Shown here: piece after piece, positions 41,896 through 52,603 of the stretch
Numbering within the stretch: the first letter of the stretch is position 1
How the letters are laid out: each line of letters starts with the position of its first letter
Origin: Heterostelium multicystogenum
Lineage: Eukaryota > Evosea > Eumycetozoa > Acytosteliales > Acytosteliaceae
Direction of reading: 5' to 3'
Assembly: GCA_003667245.1 (NCBI GenBank)
Contig: RCNN01000122.1
Span: forward strand, 1 to 64,000
DNA length: 64,000 nt
The notes under the pieces: generated by a model
What the model was told of the DNA's origin: nothing
The model's database searches: none
Seen by the model: the letters and a program-made list of their open reading frames with translations, nothing else
Translations under genes and position numbers: made by a program

Positions 41896-43296
41896 TATTC
41901 AATCACATATTATATATAGTATAGCTTTAGCATTTGTACATAGTCACCGAACAATGAGCGACCCAACAACAAGAATCCAACAAGTTATGAATCACAATCA
42001 ATCAATTAAACAACAAACAAACAAACAGATAGATAGATACTGGAATCGAGGTTGAACCAAATTATCAACTACAAGCAAATAATAGCATTGTAGATAATAA
42101 GTAATTATCTTTACAATGTGCCTCAAAAGTCATTCCACAAGAGTTCACAAGATAAGTGAGCTAACTAGTTGTCTGACAAAGAAGATCTCACTCTCATCTC
42201 ACCAACCCGCCTAAATAAATACAATAATTTAATAATTAATATAATCATTGTACAATTCAGATACCAGTGGAGGTAGGAAAGGAGTTTATTCTAAAAACCT
42301 GTACTAAAATGGATCAAAATGATCAAATTATTATTTTTCAGAAAATAGAAAAATTTTTAAAAGATGAAGGTGGGGTACAACTTTTACTATCTGCTCCCCA
42401 GTATTAAAGACGAAACGATCAAAATAGAGGGACATGCACGTTTTAGACGTATGCTAAATCATCTTGTTTTTCACTCACTTGCAACATCTTCATAGGTTCT
42501 GAAAAACTTAACCACTCTCAGATATTTATTCATGAAGTGACTTTCCATAATAGTGTATCTTCAGTAGGGCTATGAACAAGCCATTGGTACCATCTATCTT
42601 AAAAAGTTTATTACCTTATAGTTTCAATCCCATGCTCCCAACCCTGTAAAATAAAAACCAACCCATTCTAAAATAAATATATGGTATGTTATTTTTAATA
42701 CAAAGTTTGCAACAAGAAAGACTCTGATGTACACAAAACAACAATTGATTTATTTATAAATAAATTTAATAATTTGAATTAATATTATTTTAATTTTTTT
42801 CATTAACAATTGTTTGTTTGCTGTAGCTTTCAATGAACCAATAAATAAAGGAGAGGACATCCTCAGTCATTTCACTTCTTGTCAATCCAGCGCTTGTCTT
42901 TGTATAACTAATAAATTTTAAAACTCTTTTCTCCACTCCACTCCACACCCACCTTACAAAAGTAAACTTAGTGTTGTACTCACAAATCTAGTTAGTAATA
43001 TCCTATCACTAAATTATAATTTTATTTTCTTTAAATAATTCATTGTTCATTTTATAATAATAATATATATTATATCGACTCTGATTTATTTTATCTAAAT
43101 ATCATTGTAATTTTCTAATCAATATCACTAATTTATAATAATAATCATTCAACTTGTGTCACACACTTAATTTCTTTTCCACAAATCCCCAAACAATCAA
43201 TCACATTTCCACATCTAAAACTTCACAACATAAAAACAAACCTTCTTAAATCTTTTTTTGTATAATTCTATTCAAACCTAAAACTACAAACAAACA
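41896..43296. other. Intergenic region, about 1.4 kb
   Basis: Between LSM8 and HMG-CoA synthase on the same strand. The middle (about 42270-42560) is a little less AT-rich and includes a 32-codon open frame at 42310 with no known features. The right end is a C/A-rich leader before the ATG at 43297. No gene is supported. Confidence 0.55.
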
Positions 43297-44760
43297 ATGT
43301 CAAAGAGAGCAGAAAATATTGGTATCTTGGGTATGGAAATTTATTTCCCAAAGACCTACGTCGCTCAAGAAGATTTGGAAAAATTCGATGGTGTCTCAGC
43401 CGGAAAATATACTGTTGGTCTTGGCCAAACAAATATGGCATTCTGTGGTGATCTTGAAGATATCTATTCATTGTCCATGAATGCTGTTACCAACCTTATG
43501 GAGAAGTATGATGTTGATCCACACTCCATTGGTCGTCTTGAAGTTGGTACTGAGACCGTTATCGATAAGGCCAAGTCTATCAAGACCGTTTTGATGGATC
43601 TCTTTGCCAAAGTCTGGAAATACCGCTATTGATGGTATCGACACTATCAATGCCTGCTACGGTGGTACCTCTGCTCTCCACAACACCCTCCAATGGATGG
43701 AATCATCCTACTGGGATGGAACGTAATGCCATCGTTGGTTGCTGGAGACATTGCCGTTTATGAAAAAGGACCTGCCCGTCCCACTGGTGGTGCTGGAGTT
43801 GTTGCCATGTTGATTGGTCCAAATGCCCCAATTACTTTCGAAAGTGGACTACGTGGTGTACATATGGAGAATGTCTAATGATTTCTACAAGCCAGACATG
43901 GATTCCGAATACCCAAGAGTTGATGGTAAACTTTCAATCTCATGTTACCTTCGTGCCATTGACAATTGCTATGCTCGTTACCGTTCAATGTTTGAAAAGA
44001 AATACAGCCCCAGAACAATTCAACTTGTCCAAGGTTGATTATGCTGTTTTCCATTCACCATATAACAAGTTGGTCCAAAAAATCATTTGTCGTATGGTAA
44101 TTATCAAATGATCTCATTCAACTATTATCATTCGCTCATCCTAATTCTTTTCATTTAATTTAGTTGTACAACGATTTCCTTAGAGATCCAAATGCCGAGC
44201 TCTACAAATCCTTGGCAGCTTTTCAAGGATTTGAAGGCTGAAGATACCTATTTCAATGGAGATCTTGAAAAAGCATTGGTTGCTCTTTCAAAGGATGATT
44301 ACAAACAAAAAGGTTGCTCCATCTACCTTGTTGCCAAGCAATTGGGTAACACCTACTGTGGTAGTACCTATGGAGGTTTGCTCTCATTGTTCTGCGAGAA
44401 ATCCGACGAAACTTGTTGGTAAACGTGTCTTGACATTCTCTTACGGTTTCAGGTCTTTCTGCCTCTGCCTTCTCTTCAAAGTCAACCAATCGATCGAGGA
44501 GATGGTAAAGAAAGTAGACTTGAAGAAACGTTTGGGATCAGAGACAAACGTGTTACCCCAGAGGAATTCACACAAGCAAATTGACTCTCCGTGAACAACG
44601 TCATAATTTGAAGAACTACTCACCATCCGACTCTGTCTCCACTCTCTTCCCAGGATCATTCTACTTGAAACATGTTGACGATGCTGGAAGAAGAGTTTAC
44701 AACAGATCCTATGTTACCATGAGTCACTTGGCCACCGGTATCAGAATGTTGAAAAAGTAA
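43297..44760 (+). CDS. hgsA: Hydroxymethylglutaryl-CoA synthase
   Basis: Condenses acetyl-CoA and acetoacetyl-CoA to HMG-CoA, the second step of the mevalonate/sterol pathway. The start [20 protein letters not shown] is typical of the cytosolic enzyme. Landmarks: [13 protein letters not shown], the catalytic Cys in [12 protein letters not shown] (about 43655), [39 protein letters not shown], the catalytic His in [11 protein letters not shown] (about 44052), and an LSKDDYKQK region. A small intron (44097-44163) splits RM from [14 protein letters not shown] in phase. The C-terminus after several frame changes reads [16 protein letters not shown] and ends ATGIRMLKK. Breaks occur near 43612, 43725, 43855, 44010, 44090, 44210, 44310, 44410, 44450, 44545 and 44580, one of the highest loads in the window. 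D. discoideum calls this gene hgsA. It is convergent with the CHD gene. Confidence 0.95.
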
Positions 44761-44959
44761 ACAAATAAACATCCTCCATCCCTTTTTGACCATCTAATTG
44801 TTCTCGCTTAAGTTTATTTATTAATATGGATTACTTGATTTTGTGGACCAAGTATTGATTAATAGTAATTTTTCATGAAAGAAGACAAACAATATAAGTG
44901 GATACGTCCATACAAATACTATTTATGTTTATGTAGCTTTTTTGTTTATTATATGTTTG

Positions 44960-47900
44960 TTATTTTGAAGGATAAAGTGAATAACATTCAATTACATCGC
45001 TATCTTGAAGTCCAATTGTGAGTAAAGTATCGTTTGGATGTACAATGACACCTCTGTGCTTAAATATAACATTCTTCTTGGAAAGTTGGTGCTCCTGGCA
45101 GAATTTATCCATGAGAATTTGGAGTGGGAATGGGTTGGCTTGTGTGCATTTTTATATAGCTTCCAGAGTCTTGACCAACAAGTCTAACTTCCACTTCGAT
45201 GATTGGTGGTGCACCTATTGTCACTTGAATAGTTGCATGTGGACCATCTTTATAGATTCGGGATTTTCTTCAGGAATAAGACGCTTTCCTTCATGCATAA
45301 AGTTTGCATTTGACTTTTGGAGCTGGAGACGGTCGCAGAAACGTTGCATTAATGAATCAAATGATGTGTTTGTGCTAAGCAAATAGGGTACAGATGTGTT
45401 GTTGTAGTTGACATCAAGACGTACCAAAAGGAGATATGCCACAATCTGTGTATCCATGTCAATACCTTGTTCAATTGGTGATTTTGTTGGATCAACCTGC
45501 TGATTAGTTGCTGAGTTGCTAAAGAGAATCTGCTTAACTTGCAAACCATGCTTCTTGAGGAATGAGTCGATCAACTTTGAGAGGAGTGTTGATTTCTTGT
45601 GTAGAGCATATATTTCTTTTTCTCCTCCCCATGATGGGACAACATGTACATGAATAATGTCAGGAGACGATACAATAGAGAGATAAGAATCATTCTTAAT
45701 CTTATTGGATCCTATATCGCTCTTGAGATCCAATATCTTTTCCAGCGAAATCGATACGGAGATTCTTGATTTCGTAGGGTGGGGTGAGCTGTGGAAATAA
45801 GCACGTACGATATCCTCTAGAATAGTATCGTCTTGCACCTTCATGAGTACACTTTCTTGATCGAAACCTTTCACCTGAATAGTCTTCCACTTATTCTCCC
45901 AAGTGACAGTGATGATATCGTTGTCTTTGATACCAAGTTCACCTAATCTGATATTGGGTGGGATTTGGTTGTCCTTGTGGTAGAAGCGCATGATATAAAT
46001 CATTATTTTCACCATGTCCAACTTCGCCATACAAATTGTACTTGACAATGAACATCTTTTTCAATGTATCTAATGAAGTAGAGTTGGGAACAGTCATTGG
46101 GAAGAGCTTTTTCTTGCCAATGGAACATCAATGAAAGAGTATTACTCGAGGACTTTAATTCAAGGCCAGCATATCTCGTTTCAGTTGGCTTCTGCTTTAC
46201 AATTGGATCTTTTTGAGGCACTGGTTTCTGTGTTTGAGGTGGTGGCTGGTTGGTAAATTTAGATTTGTATTGCATATTTTGTTGTATTTGTTGTTGAAGC
46301 ATTTGTTGTTGTTGCTGCTGTTGTTGCTGCTGCTGATATAATTGTTGTTGATGTAATTGTTGCTTTCCTAAACTGCTAATACTTCTAAATTTATCTTCGT
46401 CATCAGAAATGTCAATGGGTTCGGGTGAAAAGATATTTTTATCAGAGGATTCTGGTTCAACCATGGTTGCAGCATTCTTGAATGCACGCTCATTCTGTTC
46501 ACTACGCAAGATAAGCTCTGTAATTCTGGTAATACGACGTCTGAGTGATTCAGAGGATGGAATTTTATCTTGAGCTGAGGCATTGGCTTCGTCATTTTGC
46601 ATAGGATCATCCGATTGACCTCCAGGAGGTTTGTTGGATCTAGTGGAAGATTGAAGCTCTAGCTCGGGATCGTTAAATATCTCTACATATTTACCATAAC
46701 CATACTTGTAAACACCTATCAAGAGAGATTTGTCATTTTCTTGATTCCAGTGGAATGTTGGACCACGACCAAGTACTGGTATCCTGAGATTCTTGAGTTG
46801 CTTTCCATACTTGATAACCAATTGTTTTGATTGCACGCATTTGCACCAAACGTGTCAAAATAGTCTGTACACGAGTGGAGAACGATGGGAAATCCAACTG
46901 CTGCCATATGATGTTGGGAGTGGTTTGGATACGGACACTGTTACTACAGATTTGGTAGGTATTGGTGAGTGGATTTGCATAGATAATATTGACAACATAG
47001 GTGCCATTGAATCCTGGGAAGAATATTTCCAATAATTTGATGCTGTCATTGATTGGATAGGTTCTAACGATTTGACTCTCTTTGAATTCCTCATTGGACA
47101 AGACCAAGTAGTAGCCAGCTTCTTTGCATGGATTCTTGTTGGAGAGAACTGGCAGTTGCTTTGGTGATGCTATAGGTGAAGAGTTATGTGAATTTGTTAA
47201 ACCATTGCTATTAGAGTTGGTCTCATGTGTTGAACCATTGTTATCATTTCCTTTGTTATCTAAAGGTGGTTGTTCAGCTGTTGGCTTTGTTTCTGATGAT
47301 TCTGTTGTTGTGGATGTTGATTCATTATTTACAGTAGTAGTGATGGGTGGAGTTGATGTTGATGTTTCAGATGGCTCAGTTTTGGTGATCGATGCTATTG
47401 GTTGATCAGCTTTGGTTTCGGACGGTGTTGGGTTAGAGGTTGATGATTCGGTTGATGATTCAGTTGGCGCTGAGCTTGAAGTAGGTGGAGGTGGCGTAGA
47501 TTTATCCCATCTAATGACAATGGATTGTGTGGTAATAAGTGGAATATTATTGTTGACTTCTCTGATGTTAAAGTAGTCCAAGTTACTGTTGGAGGTGGGT
47601 GGTGATAGTATAATTTTGCTTTCAATGTTGAATCCCATTTTGTGCCAGTTGTAGTTAGCGGTATCATCTACAAAACTGTCGAAAAAGTCTTTCATTGCAG
47701 TGGCCTGATACTTTAGACCTACTTCCAAGAATGATTCGCATATTGACTGTATCTCTGAGGGGGTCTTGTTAATGCCAGCAAGTTCCTTCTGAATCTTACG
47801 CCAACGATGGAAACCATATTTGAACATGACTCCTTTAAGCTTGTCTTTGTTGGACTTGTTCCAGACAGGAACACTTCCTGCACCAAAGAGATTGAGTGGA

Positions 47901-50900
47901 CCATTTCCAAGAGAGAGACTACTTGAGGAGGAATTCATTTGAATACCTGATCCAGACTGCTTCATACGGTTCTTTTCTTTACGTTTGCTATCAACGGTCT
48001 CAACGTCGTCGTCTGTATCTGTCTCAGCCTCATTTTCGATGTACTCTGTGTCGCTTCCATGATTATCGTCACTCGATGAGTCAGTGTCTTGCATTGCAAT
48101 GATTGTCTGGCTCTTCTTCTTCTTTTCATTGCCGTGGCTCATTGACTGTAATACCTCGGGTACAATACGCTTTCTTGTACGAGGTTTCTCAAGAAAGCAT
48201 TCTCATGTTCTGAACACGGTCACGCTCTTCAGTTGTGAATTTGGTATTGAATTCAACACGCATGATCAGTTTAAGTAGATCACCTATAAACTCGACAGAA
48301 ATAGAGTCATTCAGCTCATCACGCTTTGCTTGTGCCAGTGTACAGATGTCTTCAATATACTTTGAACGTGCTTCATCAGTGACAAAAACAGATCCACTGG
48401 CAAGCTTTTCCTCGAGCTGCTTTACTGTCTTGTAGTCAGGAAGAACCTTTTCCCAGAAGTTCTCATCGTCAATGTCTACATTCATATCGGTTTCAGTTGA
48501 GCAGAATGTTGCCTTTGAGAATCCAGAGAGATTGGATGGCTTGTTCTTGTTGTCAAAGCTGATGGTGGTTGATCTCTCTAAAATCTTATCAATGTCTTCA
48601 TTGATCATAATCTTATCGAGCTCGGATGCTTCGTTAGCGTTCTCTGCAAAGAGATAGGCAGCACCATACTTAAGCATTTGACTGATTTCCGATGGTGCTT
48701 CTGGGTCAATATCCTTGACCGCAGTTGTAGTTGGACTAGTAGTAGCTGCATCATCTTTATCTTTTGACTCACCACCCGCTGATTCTGTCGATGGTTCCTC
48801 ACCTTCCTTTTCCTTGTCTTTATCCTTATTTTCACTGTCTTTCTTCATTGGGTTATTTTTGGCATTGTTCAAAACAATATGGTCCAATAAAAGCTTCTTT
48901 GTGGCCACCTCAAAGAGATACTGCTCGTATGTATTTCTGGTAATAAGACGGTAAACCTTTACATTGGAGGTCTGTCCAATACGATGACATCTTGCTTGTG
49001 CCTGTAGATCACTCTGTGGGTTCCAATCGCTATCAAATAGAATAACAGTATCTGCACTGGTCAAATTGATACCGACACCACCGGATCTAGTTGAAAGGAG
49101 GAAGACGAAACGATCAGAGTCTTTCTCCATGAATCTCTCAATGCTAGCTTGACGAACTTCACTCTTGACAGAACCATCTAAACGTTCATAAGGATACTCT
49201 CTATAGTGAAGATAGTCCTCAAGAATATTGAGGGACTCGACCATCTGACTGAAAATTAACACCTTGTGACCTTCAGCTTTCAGTCTTTGCAGCAATTTAT
49301 CAACTAAAACCAACTTGGAACTTGATCTAATCAATAGTTCTGAAATTTGCTCTTCTGTCTTCAGCTTTTCCTGCCTGATAATAGTGTCCTCGGCACCTAA
49401 AATTAAAAATGGATGATTGCAAACCTTACGAATCTACATGATTGATTGAATTATTAGTATCAAGGAGCATGCATATATATCTTTTGTTTACATACCTGTA
49501 TCATGATATTTGTCAACTTTGGTAAATTTGATTTGCTCTTTACACCTCTTGAAAGGAACTCTCTGTTCTTTTCGAGAATGGCACGATAGTAGGTCTTCTG
49601 AGTAGAAGACAGCTCCACTTGAATGACGGTTTCCTCCTTGATAGGAATGGAGAGCTCGACATCTTCTTTCATTCTACGCAACAAATATGGAGATAAAAGA
49701 TGGTGTAGTCTTTGCACCTGTGACTCCTCCTTCAAATCACTAAACTCTGCAAGAAACTCTGCACTGTTGTTGAATTTCTTTGAATCTAAAAAGTTTAACA
49801 TTGTCCACAACTCTTTCATGTCGTTCTGTAATGGAGTACCTGTTAAGATGACGGTATGTTCAGACTGAAACAAAAGAGATTGAGTGGTAAGTATATGTTA
49901 AAGGAATCGGCAATGATAACTATAGCTTACTTTGATTGATTTTAATTTGGTCAAAACTTTAGAGTTTACATTTTTGATACGATGTCCTTCGTCGAGAACC
50001 ATAATTCTCCAAGGTACTTTAACAATGTCGGCATGCTCGGTCATCACTGTTTCATAGGTTGTCAAGAGAACCTCAAACATGTATGTCTTGTCCTGTCGTT
50101 TCCATTCATACTTCTTCAGAGTGGAACGTGCTTCCTGGGTTCCATAGAATACCAAGACACGCATATTGGTCCATTTTATGATTTCTTTGTGCCAATTTCC
50201 AAGAGTAGACAGGGGAGCTACAACCATGAAAGGACCCTTGATACCTACGGACTGACTGATATATTGGAGGAATGCAATGGTTTGGATAGTTTTACCAAGA
50301 CCCATCTCATCTGCAAGAAGCGATGATCTTTCGTGGTACCAGCAGTATGATAGCCAAAGGAAACCCTCGACCTGGAACTCCTTAAGAGCGAGCTGCTCAT
50401 TGAATTTAGGGACCAGATTGTTATCGAATGGTGGCATCTTTGATGGACGCTTCACGACTTTCTTTGTACCACCACCTGTAGTCTGCAGCTCATAGTAGGC
50501 TTGGATTGCCTGCTTATCCGAGGCAGAAGACAGTGAATCCTCTGTCTCCCAAGTTGTCTTCTCATAGGGAAGACCTTTCCATTTCACAAGGTATCGTGTT
50601 TCAGTCTTTCTGGTGCCTCTAGCTTGTTTTTTGACTTCAGTCAAGATCTTCTCTACCTGTATGTTGTCCTGGTTAAAGTAGTGCAGTGGATTGGCTTCGG
50701 ATTCGTCTTTGATGGCTTCGGGTATAGTTGCATTTGCTTTCTTTGTCATGAGTTGAATTCTGTTTGTAAGATTGCGCGTGCTCTCTAGCTGCGCCAGTGT
50801 CATCCATCTAACTGCTCTAAATGATTTATCTTTCAAAAGGACTAAATATCTAACTTCTTCACTTGGTTTGTCTGGAGTTGATCCTCCATTTTCTGTTGGT

Positions 50901-52603
50901 TTCTGTTCGGTCTCTATTGACTTTGTCTCTGATTCGGTCTTTGTTGCTGGTGGGGTTGATGTACCATTTTGTTTAATTTCTTCCTTTACACTGCTGCTGC
51001 TGCTGCTTTTATCTTCACTGTCTAAGTTCATGGCCGCAGTTTCCGAGGCCTTGGAGTCTGTTGTTTCTTCTTTGATATCCACTGGATTTGAGGAGGTCGT
51101 AGTTGTTGATGTCGATGATTTTAAGATAGGTGATGATGTGGCCGATGAATTTTGTGGATTGGGTGTCGATGCTTGATTACTGTTATTCAGATACTCCTGC
51201 AGAGTATACGGCAATAAAACAAATTTTCCTTTAAATAACTTTGTTGTTAAAATCTTTTCGACAGTCTCGTTCTTTAGTTTCGCCAAATTGCGGATGCCAG
51301 CATCGATTGATTCGTCCATCTCTTCTTCACTCATCTCTTCACTGCTTTCGCTACTTTGCTCCTCGTCCTCTGATAATGAGTCCATGGACTCCTCGGAATG
51401 ACTTGAATCTTTGTCACGGTTAGGAGCGCTGCTATCACTGTTTTCCTCCTCTTCACTTGCATAGTCTTCATCATCCTCTTCCTCCGAAGAATATAGAATC
51501 TCTTTCTTTGATTTCTTTGTCTTTTTCTTTGGCTGCTTTGCTGTGCTCTTTCTCTTTGTTGACGCTATTGTCTTTGGTTGTTGTTTCTTGGCAGGTGCCT
51601 TTTTCGACTTTGAATTAGGTGGCATATAGTCTGTATCGGAATCTGAAAAGTCACTCCCTGTATCGTTCTTTCCATTTGAAACTGATTTCTTTGTTGATTT
51701 TGCTGTAGCAGCTTTTCCTTTGGCGACTGGAGCAGCTCTTTTTCCTTTAACACTCCTACTGGTGGCAACACCATCTGATTCCGAATCGCTCATGTCCGAA
51801 TCATCGTACTCATCGGATTGGTCTTCGTCCATATATTTTGTGTTTTTCTTCATGCCCACCATGACCTTTACATTGACAGGTTCGTCATCAAAGTCGGCAT
51901 CTGAGTCTTCATCTGTAATATCGTCATCGTCTGATTCTTCAACCAACATCTTCTTGCTATTTGATTTTTCCGCTGTTATTCTTTGCGGAGCTGTTGTTTG
52001 CCTTCTTGGCAGCTGTTTGATGTTGCTGTTGTTGCTGTTGTTGTTGCTGAGCCAGCAGTTTGGATTTGGCTCTAGTCATTGTTGTAGTACTATTTATAGG
52101 TGAAGGTTGTTCGAGCATTCTCTGTTGTGAGCGAGTGCGAGGGATCACAGCTGGTGGTGGGGCATTCATAATCGGTGATGACGTAATGGGTGAGGAGGAG
52201 TGCGGCGATGACTTGGCCTTGCCCTTAACAACGGGTGGGATGTCGTCGCTCATTTCTTCGCCACTCTGATCAGACATTTCGACGTCAATCACTTCCTCTT
52301 TCTTCTTACTCTTTGAATTTGTCTTCTAAATTTGTCAAGCAATAAAACAGCAATTAATTAAACCAATCCATCAACTACAAGGGTCAATTTACAAAAATTA
52401 AATAAATAAAATTCAAAATTTAAAAACAAAAAAATATGAAATGAAAATTTGCAAATTCATTTGAACAACACCAAATAAACAAACACATCCCTGCACGACG
52501 CTCCTGACAACAAACAAAATAACAGCTAATTCCAATTCAAATAATGAATGCTGTTTGTTGTGTGGTTCTTAATATTGATATAGATAGTTACCTTTGCTGT
52601 CAT
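44960..52603 (-). CDS. CHD-type chromatin remodeller with tandem C-terminal SUMO/ubiquitin-like domains
   Basis: SNF2-family ATP-dependent nucleosome remodeller, about 2,350 residues. Exon 1 (52603-52592) encodes MTAK and joins 52325 in phase. A Ser/Asp/Glu/Lys-rich N-terminus with polyQ follows. Two chromodomains come next, the first weak (YLVLLKDKSFRAVRW), the second clear (TRYLVKWKGLPYEKTTWE, about 50600). The helicase has LLADEMGLGKTIQT (about 50300), DEGH (about 49995), TGTPLQNDMKELW, introns 49865-49930 and 49434-49495, RKVCNHPFLI, VLIFSQMVESLNILEDYL and CHRIGQT. SANT-like (about 47870-47700) and SLIDE-like (GVYKYGYGKYVEIF, about 46715) helices follow with a long Ser/Thr insert between. 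After polyQ the same frame enters beta-grasp folds: about 46134-45895, 45889-45629, 45622-45428, 45427-45190 and 45189-44963. The last two are most SUMO-like (LMQRFCDRLQLQ, HEGKRL; LMDKFCQEHQLS, VIFKHRGV). Frame breaks near 51953, 48185, 46780, 46060, 46000, 45235 and 45120 are bridged. Relatives are CHD1-type; the tail is unusual. Confidence 0.85.
46265..46360 (-). repeat. CAG/CAA (polyQ) repeat in the CHD gene
   Basis: A Gln-rich run (minus strand) links the SLIDE-like region to the first ubiquitin-like fold. Similar polyQ lies near 52018-52050 in the N-terminus. Such runs are common in dictyostelid proteins. Confidence 0.85.

Follow-up and report, generated by a model that had tools for sequence, protein, structure and literature searches.

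A gene for a CHD-type chromatin remodeler that appears to terminate in five tandem SUMO-like domains was found on the reverse strand of a 64,000-nucleotide stretch of DNA from Heterostelium multicystogenum (the window; contig RCNN01000122.1, here C122, from an assembly of 29.7 Mb in 528 contigs). At the level of the DNA and of the predicted domains this architecture is well supported, and we infer that the two parts are made as one protein in vivo. The fusion of a CHD remodeler with five SUMO-like units had been proposed in an earlier note on this DNA, and the proposal is now supported by the Pfam matches of the remodeler core, by five stretches that match Rad60-SLD, by the modeled fold of the last domain, and by the lack of a clear gene boundary in the DNA. 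The arrangement suggests a motor with built-in SUMO mimics, by which enzymes of the SUMO pathway or other partners would be drawn to chromatin.

Structure and Domain Order of the CHD Gene

The gene and the features that precede the SUMO-like array are listed below.

44960..52603, reverse strand: whole CHD gene, from the ATG to the stop codon TAA (44962-44960)
50489..50659, reverse strand: chromodomain (Pfam PF00385, E 1.3e-12)
49925..50377, reverse strand: SNF2 ATPase lobe 1, first part (Pfam PF00176, E 2.6e-36)
49493..49873, reverse strand: SNF2 ATPase lobe 1, second part, 3' of an intron (Pfam PF00176, E 1.3e-29)
48975..49310, reverse strand: helicase C-terminal lobe (Pfam PF00271, E 1.8e-25)
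47780..47860, reverse strand: SANT-like helix region (NKDKLKGVMFKYGFHRWRKI), recognized by eye
46525..46752, reverse strand: SLIDE/HTH_CHD1_Hrp3 region (Pfam PF23588, E 1.6e-9)
46150..46524, reverse strand: polyQ linker, in an open ORF in frame with the SLIDE region and the first SUMO-like domain, with coding-like GC

The coding sequence is proposed to begin with a short first exon, MTAK, in which the ATG at 52603 is followed by a GTAACT donor, with three introns thereafter. The longer intron is proposed to lie directly after this four-residue exon, and introns of 66 and 62 bases split the ATPase. The order of PF00385, PF00176, and PF00271, in which a two-lobed ATPase follows the chromodomain, identifies the product as a CHD remodeler. 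For the first part of the ATPase, the top sequence matches in the PDB were structures of Chd1. A single chromodomain was recognized by Pfam, and a candidate degenerate first copy near 50851-50800 did not score. The SLIDE region also matched the Chd1 DNA-binding domain (E 5.5e-6) and, together with the match to HTH_CHD1_Hrp3, this identifies the DNA-binding region of CHD subfamily I.

With a limit of E 1, Pfam matched nothing in the ORF that contains the SANT-like helices. A long S/T/P-rich stretch, followed by the unassigned segment AGYYLVLSNEEF...NSVRIQTT, separates the SANT-like region from the SLIDE region (47700-46900), and the ORF of this stretch and segment gave no Pfam match at the same limit. 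The CHCT domain (PF13907) was not matched on C122. A search of the whole 64,000-nt window with Rfam at gathering scores returned nothing.

Five SUMO-like Domains at the C-Terminus

The polyQ linker leads directly into the array, whose five domains (D1-D5) are as follows. The frame breaks in the list are single-base breaks, and their origin is considered further below.

45896..46149, reverse strand: D1 (Rad60-SLD E 0.0033, which falls short of the Pfam cut-off; two frame breaks)
45665..45895, reverse strand: D2 (Rad60-SLD E 4.6e-5, 23.6 bits against a cut-off of 23.8; two frame breaks)
45431..45664, reverse strand: D3 (Rad60-SLD E 0.069; unbroken)
45207..45430, reverse strand: D4 (Rad60-SLD E 1.7e-4 when read through; one frame break; acidic residue in FMHEG)
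44963..45206, reverse strand: D5 (Rad60-SLD E 5e-7; one frame break; ends YPSK)

When the whole tail was read through with an X at each break, Rad60-SLD was matched by Pfam in five stretches (E 1.1e-21), and one unbroken ORF of the tail was matched in three stretches (E 4.6e-13). Among the five single read-through units only D5 exceeds the Pfam cut-off, and the profile matches of D1 and D3 are weak; the in-frame piece of D4 also lies above the cut-off of 23.8 bits (24.4 bits, E 2.5e-5). The D3 stretch (residues 136-208 of query P0002) matched the SUMO-like chain 2k8h in the PDB with an E of 6.6e-4, and D5 matched SUMO2/3 with an E of 1.2e-5. Both D4 and D5 score higher as SUMO-like domains than as ubiquitin. 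The domains adjoin one another with almost no linkers and are divergent, D5 being 21-27% identical to D1, D3, and D4 and 7% identical to D2.

A beta-grasp fold had been anticipated for the tail as a whole. For D5 this was obtained: the AF2 model, for which D5 was aligned with D4, D3, and another, partial reading of itself, reached a pLDDT of 85.3 and a pTM of 0.75 and was recognized as a SUMO fold by both Foldseek and VIA. The profile match and the beta-grasp fold together are those of a Rad60-SLD domain. No confident structure model was obtained for D1-D4. A model of D3-D4 from the unbroken ORF P0003, folded without an alignment, had a pLDDT of 43.5 and was unusable.

The last domain closes with YPSK, as the earlier note had observed, and is followed by the stop codon at 44960. 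The end of the array thus differs from that of a SUMO modifier in that the diglycine is absent. Because it lacks the diglycine, the array should not be conjugatable as SUMO and is therefore regarded as a fixed module, which agrees with the previous suggestion of an interaction module rather than a conjugatable tag.

Other CHD and SUMO-like Genes in the Assembly

Among the matches listed, those to the chromodomain and to SNF2 coincide on C122, C333, and C32. The two additional genes are

C32:134000-138850: CHD1-like gene, ending in CHD1-like_C (E 1.3e-19)
C333:7179-12587: CHD6-9-like gene, with HTH_CHD6-9 (E 1.3e-13)

Apart from the one encoded on C32, no CHD1-like_C (CHCT) domain was found in the assembly. 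The last long ORF of the gene on C333, taken as the end of the protein, gave no Pfam match. No SUMO-like tail was found on C333 or C32 when ORFs of at least 60 and at least 70 amino acids, respectively, were read, and among the three CHD genes found the tail is present only on C122. Many chromodomain matches with identical scores (C23:130178, C84:94732, and C1:161054, among the matches listed) lie in frames of up to about 1150-1310 amino acids, which are probably retrotransposon polyproteins as recognized by eye and which, in contrast to the genes for CHD and HMG-CoA synthase, are intact. Pfam Dicty_spore_N is matched four times in the assembly, which supports a dictyostelid source.

The SUMO of this organism, encoded on C10, ends IGGCN and has the diglycine. 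When it was used as the query, the sole other place matched was D4 (E 0.022, 25% identity). The C10 gene was considered as another frame-broken gene, and this was rejected since an ordinary intron is present in the DNA; it is not counted toward assembly errors. With D5 as the query, no locus was matched besides the CHD tail. A whole-genome search with Rad60-SLD at E 0.001 returned 21 places, and the CHD tail locus was not among them. Nine of these were read by eye and were found to be ubiquitin repeats, a ubiquitin-tail fusion, a broken ubiquitin copy, a ubiquilin-like sequence, a talin/FERM-like sequence, and two other single ubiquitin-like domains, with no second tandem SUMO-like gene among the nine; a tenth is the SUMO on C10. 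Judged from these 10 of the 21 places, there is a weak indication that a separate gene for a RENi (Rad60-Esc2-NIP45) protein is absent. On one strand of C135:91500-94500, a ubiquitin-like domain, a von Willebrand-A-like segment, and an ORF of 306 amino acids resembling a ubiquitin-conjugating enzyme were recognized by eye close together, and these are possibly one gene.

Proposed Function of the Array

We tentatively propose, at somewhat less than even confidence, that the protein is a CHD remodeler with a CHD1-like ATPase and HTH region and without CHCT, that its C-terminus is a five-domain fixed SUMO mimic, and that D4 recruits Ubc9 to nucleosomes. The array would sit at the position of CHCT in CHD1-type proteins and would act as a fixed, non-conjugatable mimic of SUMO. 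D4 would most likely bind the SUMO E2 Ubc9 non-covalently, in the manner of SLD2 of Rad60 and Esc2, and the remodeler would bring Ubc9 to nucleosomes, so that local sumoylation is promoted. The remaining domains may space or stabilize D4, or they may bind further partners. That the tail could recruit the SUMO E2 through mimicry had been suggested previously; from the aligned residues this is plausible and can be narrowed to D4. Both the binding of Ubc9 and its effect on chromatin are what we infer from this likeness.

In an alignment at the FRFDG segment of SUMO2, the corresponding residues are FMHEG in D4, FKHRG in D5, FYHKD in D1, and DFAGK in D2, and D3 has an insertion. The acidic residue is kept at the aligned position in D4 only and is replaced by arginine in D5. 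We take the acid of FMHEG in D4 to be equivalent to E380 of Rad60 and to the aspartate of SUMO FxxDG, a contact to Ubc9. These residues point to D4 as the candidate contact for Ubc9 and make D5 similar to the charge-reversed mutant. Neither D4 nor D5 retains the lysines found in FKIKRHT of SUMO2, which presumably belong to the SIM groove. For Rad60 and Esc2, SLD2 is described as binding Ubc9 through a required acidic residue, E380 in Rad60 and D430 in Esc2 (PMC7891725), and a further role of Rad60 SLD2 that is independent of Ubc9 is also described (PMC2946365).

An explanation of the same tentative standing gives Ubc9 no role and makes the array a scaffold, an intramolecular regulator (of the ATPase or DNA binding, for example), or a binder of SIM partners. 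The near absence of linkers, the divergence of the domains, the confinement of the acidic residue to D4, and the location of the array in the place of the CHCT domain of the CHD1-type paralogue are all in keeping with such a role. However, D4 and D5 are closer by score to SUMO-like domains than to ubiquitin, and the loss in these domains of what we assume to be the SIM-groove lysines makes plain SIM binding less likely. Recruitment of Ubc9 by D4 is the reading that we prefer, with the scaffold or regulatory role as its equal rival. It is also conceivable, although rather unlikely, that a dictyostelid array of the RENi type became the C-terminal module of a CHD protein and was expanded to five domains, such that one polypeptide both slides nucleosomes and recruits the SUMO E2; in that case the protein may also do the job of RENi.

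Origin of the Frame Breaks

Six single-base frame breaks were placed in the tail (near 46110, 46007, 45781, 45723, 45250, and 45137) and three upstream of it (near 51966, 48200, and 46805). A single stop-free frame had been reported to run from the SLIDE-like helix through the polyQ tract into the array. This holds as far as the first strand of D1, since the ORF at 46854..46009 on the reverse strand spans the helix, the polyQ tract, and that strand, but it does not hold for the array itself, which contains the six breaks.

The coding path was also determined without homology by using a Viterbi model of codon usage trained on the CHD exons at 51942-46830 in three pieces. The model was applied to 48202-44963, of which 48180-46830 was also in the training data. 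A stop was made cheaper than a frame change, so that the path was not forced around stops. The path shifts frame at five of the seven breaks placed in 48202-44963, missing both of those in D2, and no in-frame stop occurs on it over this range. One extra frame change, an excursion in the polyQ tract, was taken as an artifact. The breaks in D2 rest on the Pfam score, which increases from 14.5 bits in frame 0 to 23.6 bits when read through.

The breaks probably stem from errors in sequencing or assembly. Assembly indels are likely because the neighboring HMG-CoA synthase gene and the two other CHD genes look broken too. In the former (43282-44757, forward strand), eight of the nine pieces tested match Pfam in three frames and in roughly the order of the profile; two of the pieces overlap, and a gap elsewhere is perhaps an intron. 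NACYGGT and FHSPYNK, which we take to be active-site motifs of HMG-CoA synthase, can be read in this region. The frame also appears to change inside the conserved cores of the two other CHD genes. Other frames of the assembly are long and intact, and the errors are therefore not uniform across it. A second copy of HMG-CoA synthase is present on C227, which formally allows for the decay of both neighboring genes.

That the tail is the decaying end of a pseudogene, with the remodeler shortened in this species, is improbable. The placement of nine breaks in one gene, with six falling in the tail, is in accord with decay, but nonsense changes would also be expected and none is found on the tail path, even though stops were the cheaper choice. 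The frame changes in the HMG-CoA synthase gene, and those apparent in the genes of C333 and C32, are the pattern of assembly indels.

One Gene or Two

In steps of 100 bases, the GC content stays at 0.33-0.42 between 47.0 and 45.0 kb and drops to 0.25 at 45.0-44.8 kb; for comparison, it is 0.24-0.27 above 52.3 kb and 0.28 at an intron. A simple pattern search of 46600-44963 found no intron-like stretch with a GC content under 0.33. On the gene strand, no AATAAA occurs inside the gene from the start codon onward, and the one at 44950 follows the stop codon by roughly 10 bases. The linker contains the variant ATTAAA at 46159, two more copies lie within the ATPase part, and all three are read as coding.

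It is slightly less probable still that two adjacent genes, one for the CHD protein and one for a separate multi-SUMO-like protein, have been joined on paper. The ATTAAA at 46159 could be a weak poly(A) signal, and a RENi-like protein, JC3V1_0C0008_11033, with SUMO-like segments at 230-340 and 340-449 is listed for D. discoideum in Table 1 of PMC549199, but the frame is open across the linker, there is no AT-rich gap, and AATAAA is not found within the gene. The least probable alternative is an assembly misjoin of two unrelated loci at the repeat-like polyQ tract that separates the two parts, since a 33-mer and a 31-mer taken from it are both unique in the 29.7 Mb assembly, the reading frame continues through it, and the tail DNA was found once. 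A single gene for the remodeler and the array is the reading retained below.

Comparison with Known Systems

The earlier note knew of no CHD protein with tandem SUMO-like domains. This agrees with our full-text literature searches (titles and abstracts, with few subscription papers covered), in which neither a CHD protein with SUMO-like domains nor a Dictyostelium protein combining such domains with CHD was found. If the assignment is correct, the combination of a remodeling motor with a non-conjugatable SUMO-like array would be a natural and permanent link between nucleosome remodeling and SUMO signaling. If D. discoideum shares the fusion, removal of the tail could sever this link in a well-developed genetic system.

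The C122 protein has in common with CHD subfamily I (yeast Chd1 and animal CHD1/CHD2) the chromodomain, an SNF2 ATPase closest to that of Chd1, and the HTH_CHD1_Hrp3 region. Those proteins have CHCT at the C-terminus, whereas the C122 protein ends in five SUMO-like domains instead. Dictyostelium has ChdA, ChdB, and ChdC, and three contigs with both chromodomain and SNF2 matches are found here among the matches listed. Three Chd proteins, one of them of type III, are described for D. discoideum (PMC5378177), and the three CHD genes of the present assembly, one of which is CHD6-9-like, fit that description.

The array differs from SUMO itself (Smt3/SUMO1-3) in having no C-terminal diglycine, in being fused in tandem, and in its divergent binding surfaces. 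The RENi proteins are described as having two C-terminal SUMO-like domains (one in plants) without diglycine, preceded by a polar low-complexity N-terminus (PMC549199). The C122 protein likewise carries non-conjugatable SUMO-like domains at the C-terminus of a chromatin protein after a low-complexity stretch, and Foldseek matched D5 to, among others, the structure of SLD2 from NIP45 (3a4r). In contrast to RENi, it has five such domains preceded by a CHD motor and, if this architecture is correct, SUMO mimicry would be extended from one or two domains to five.
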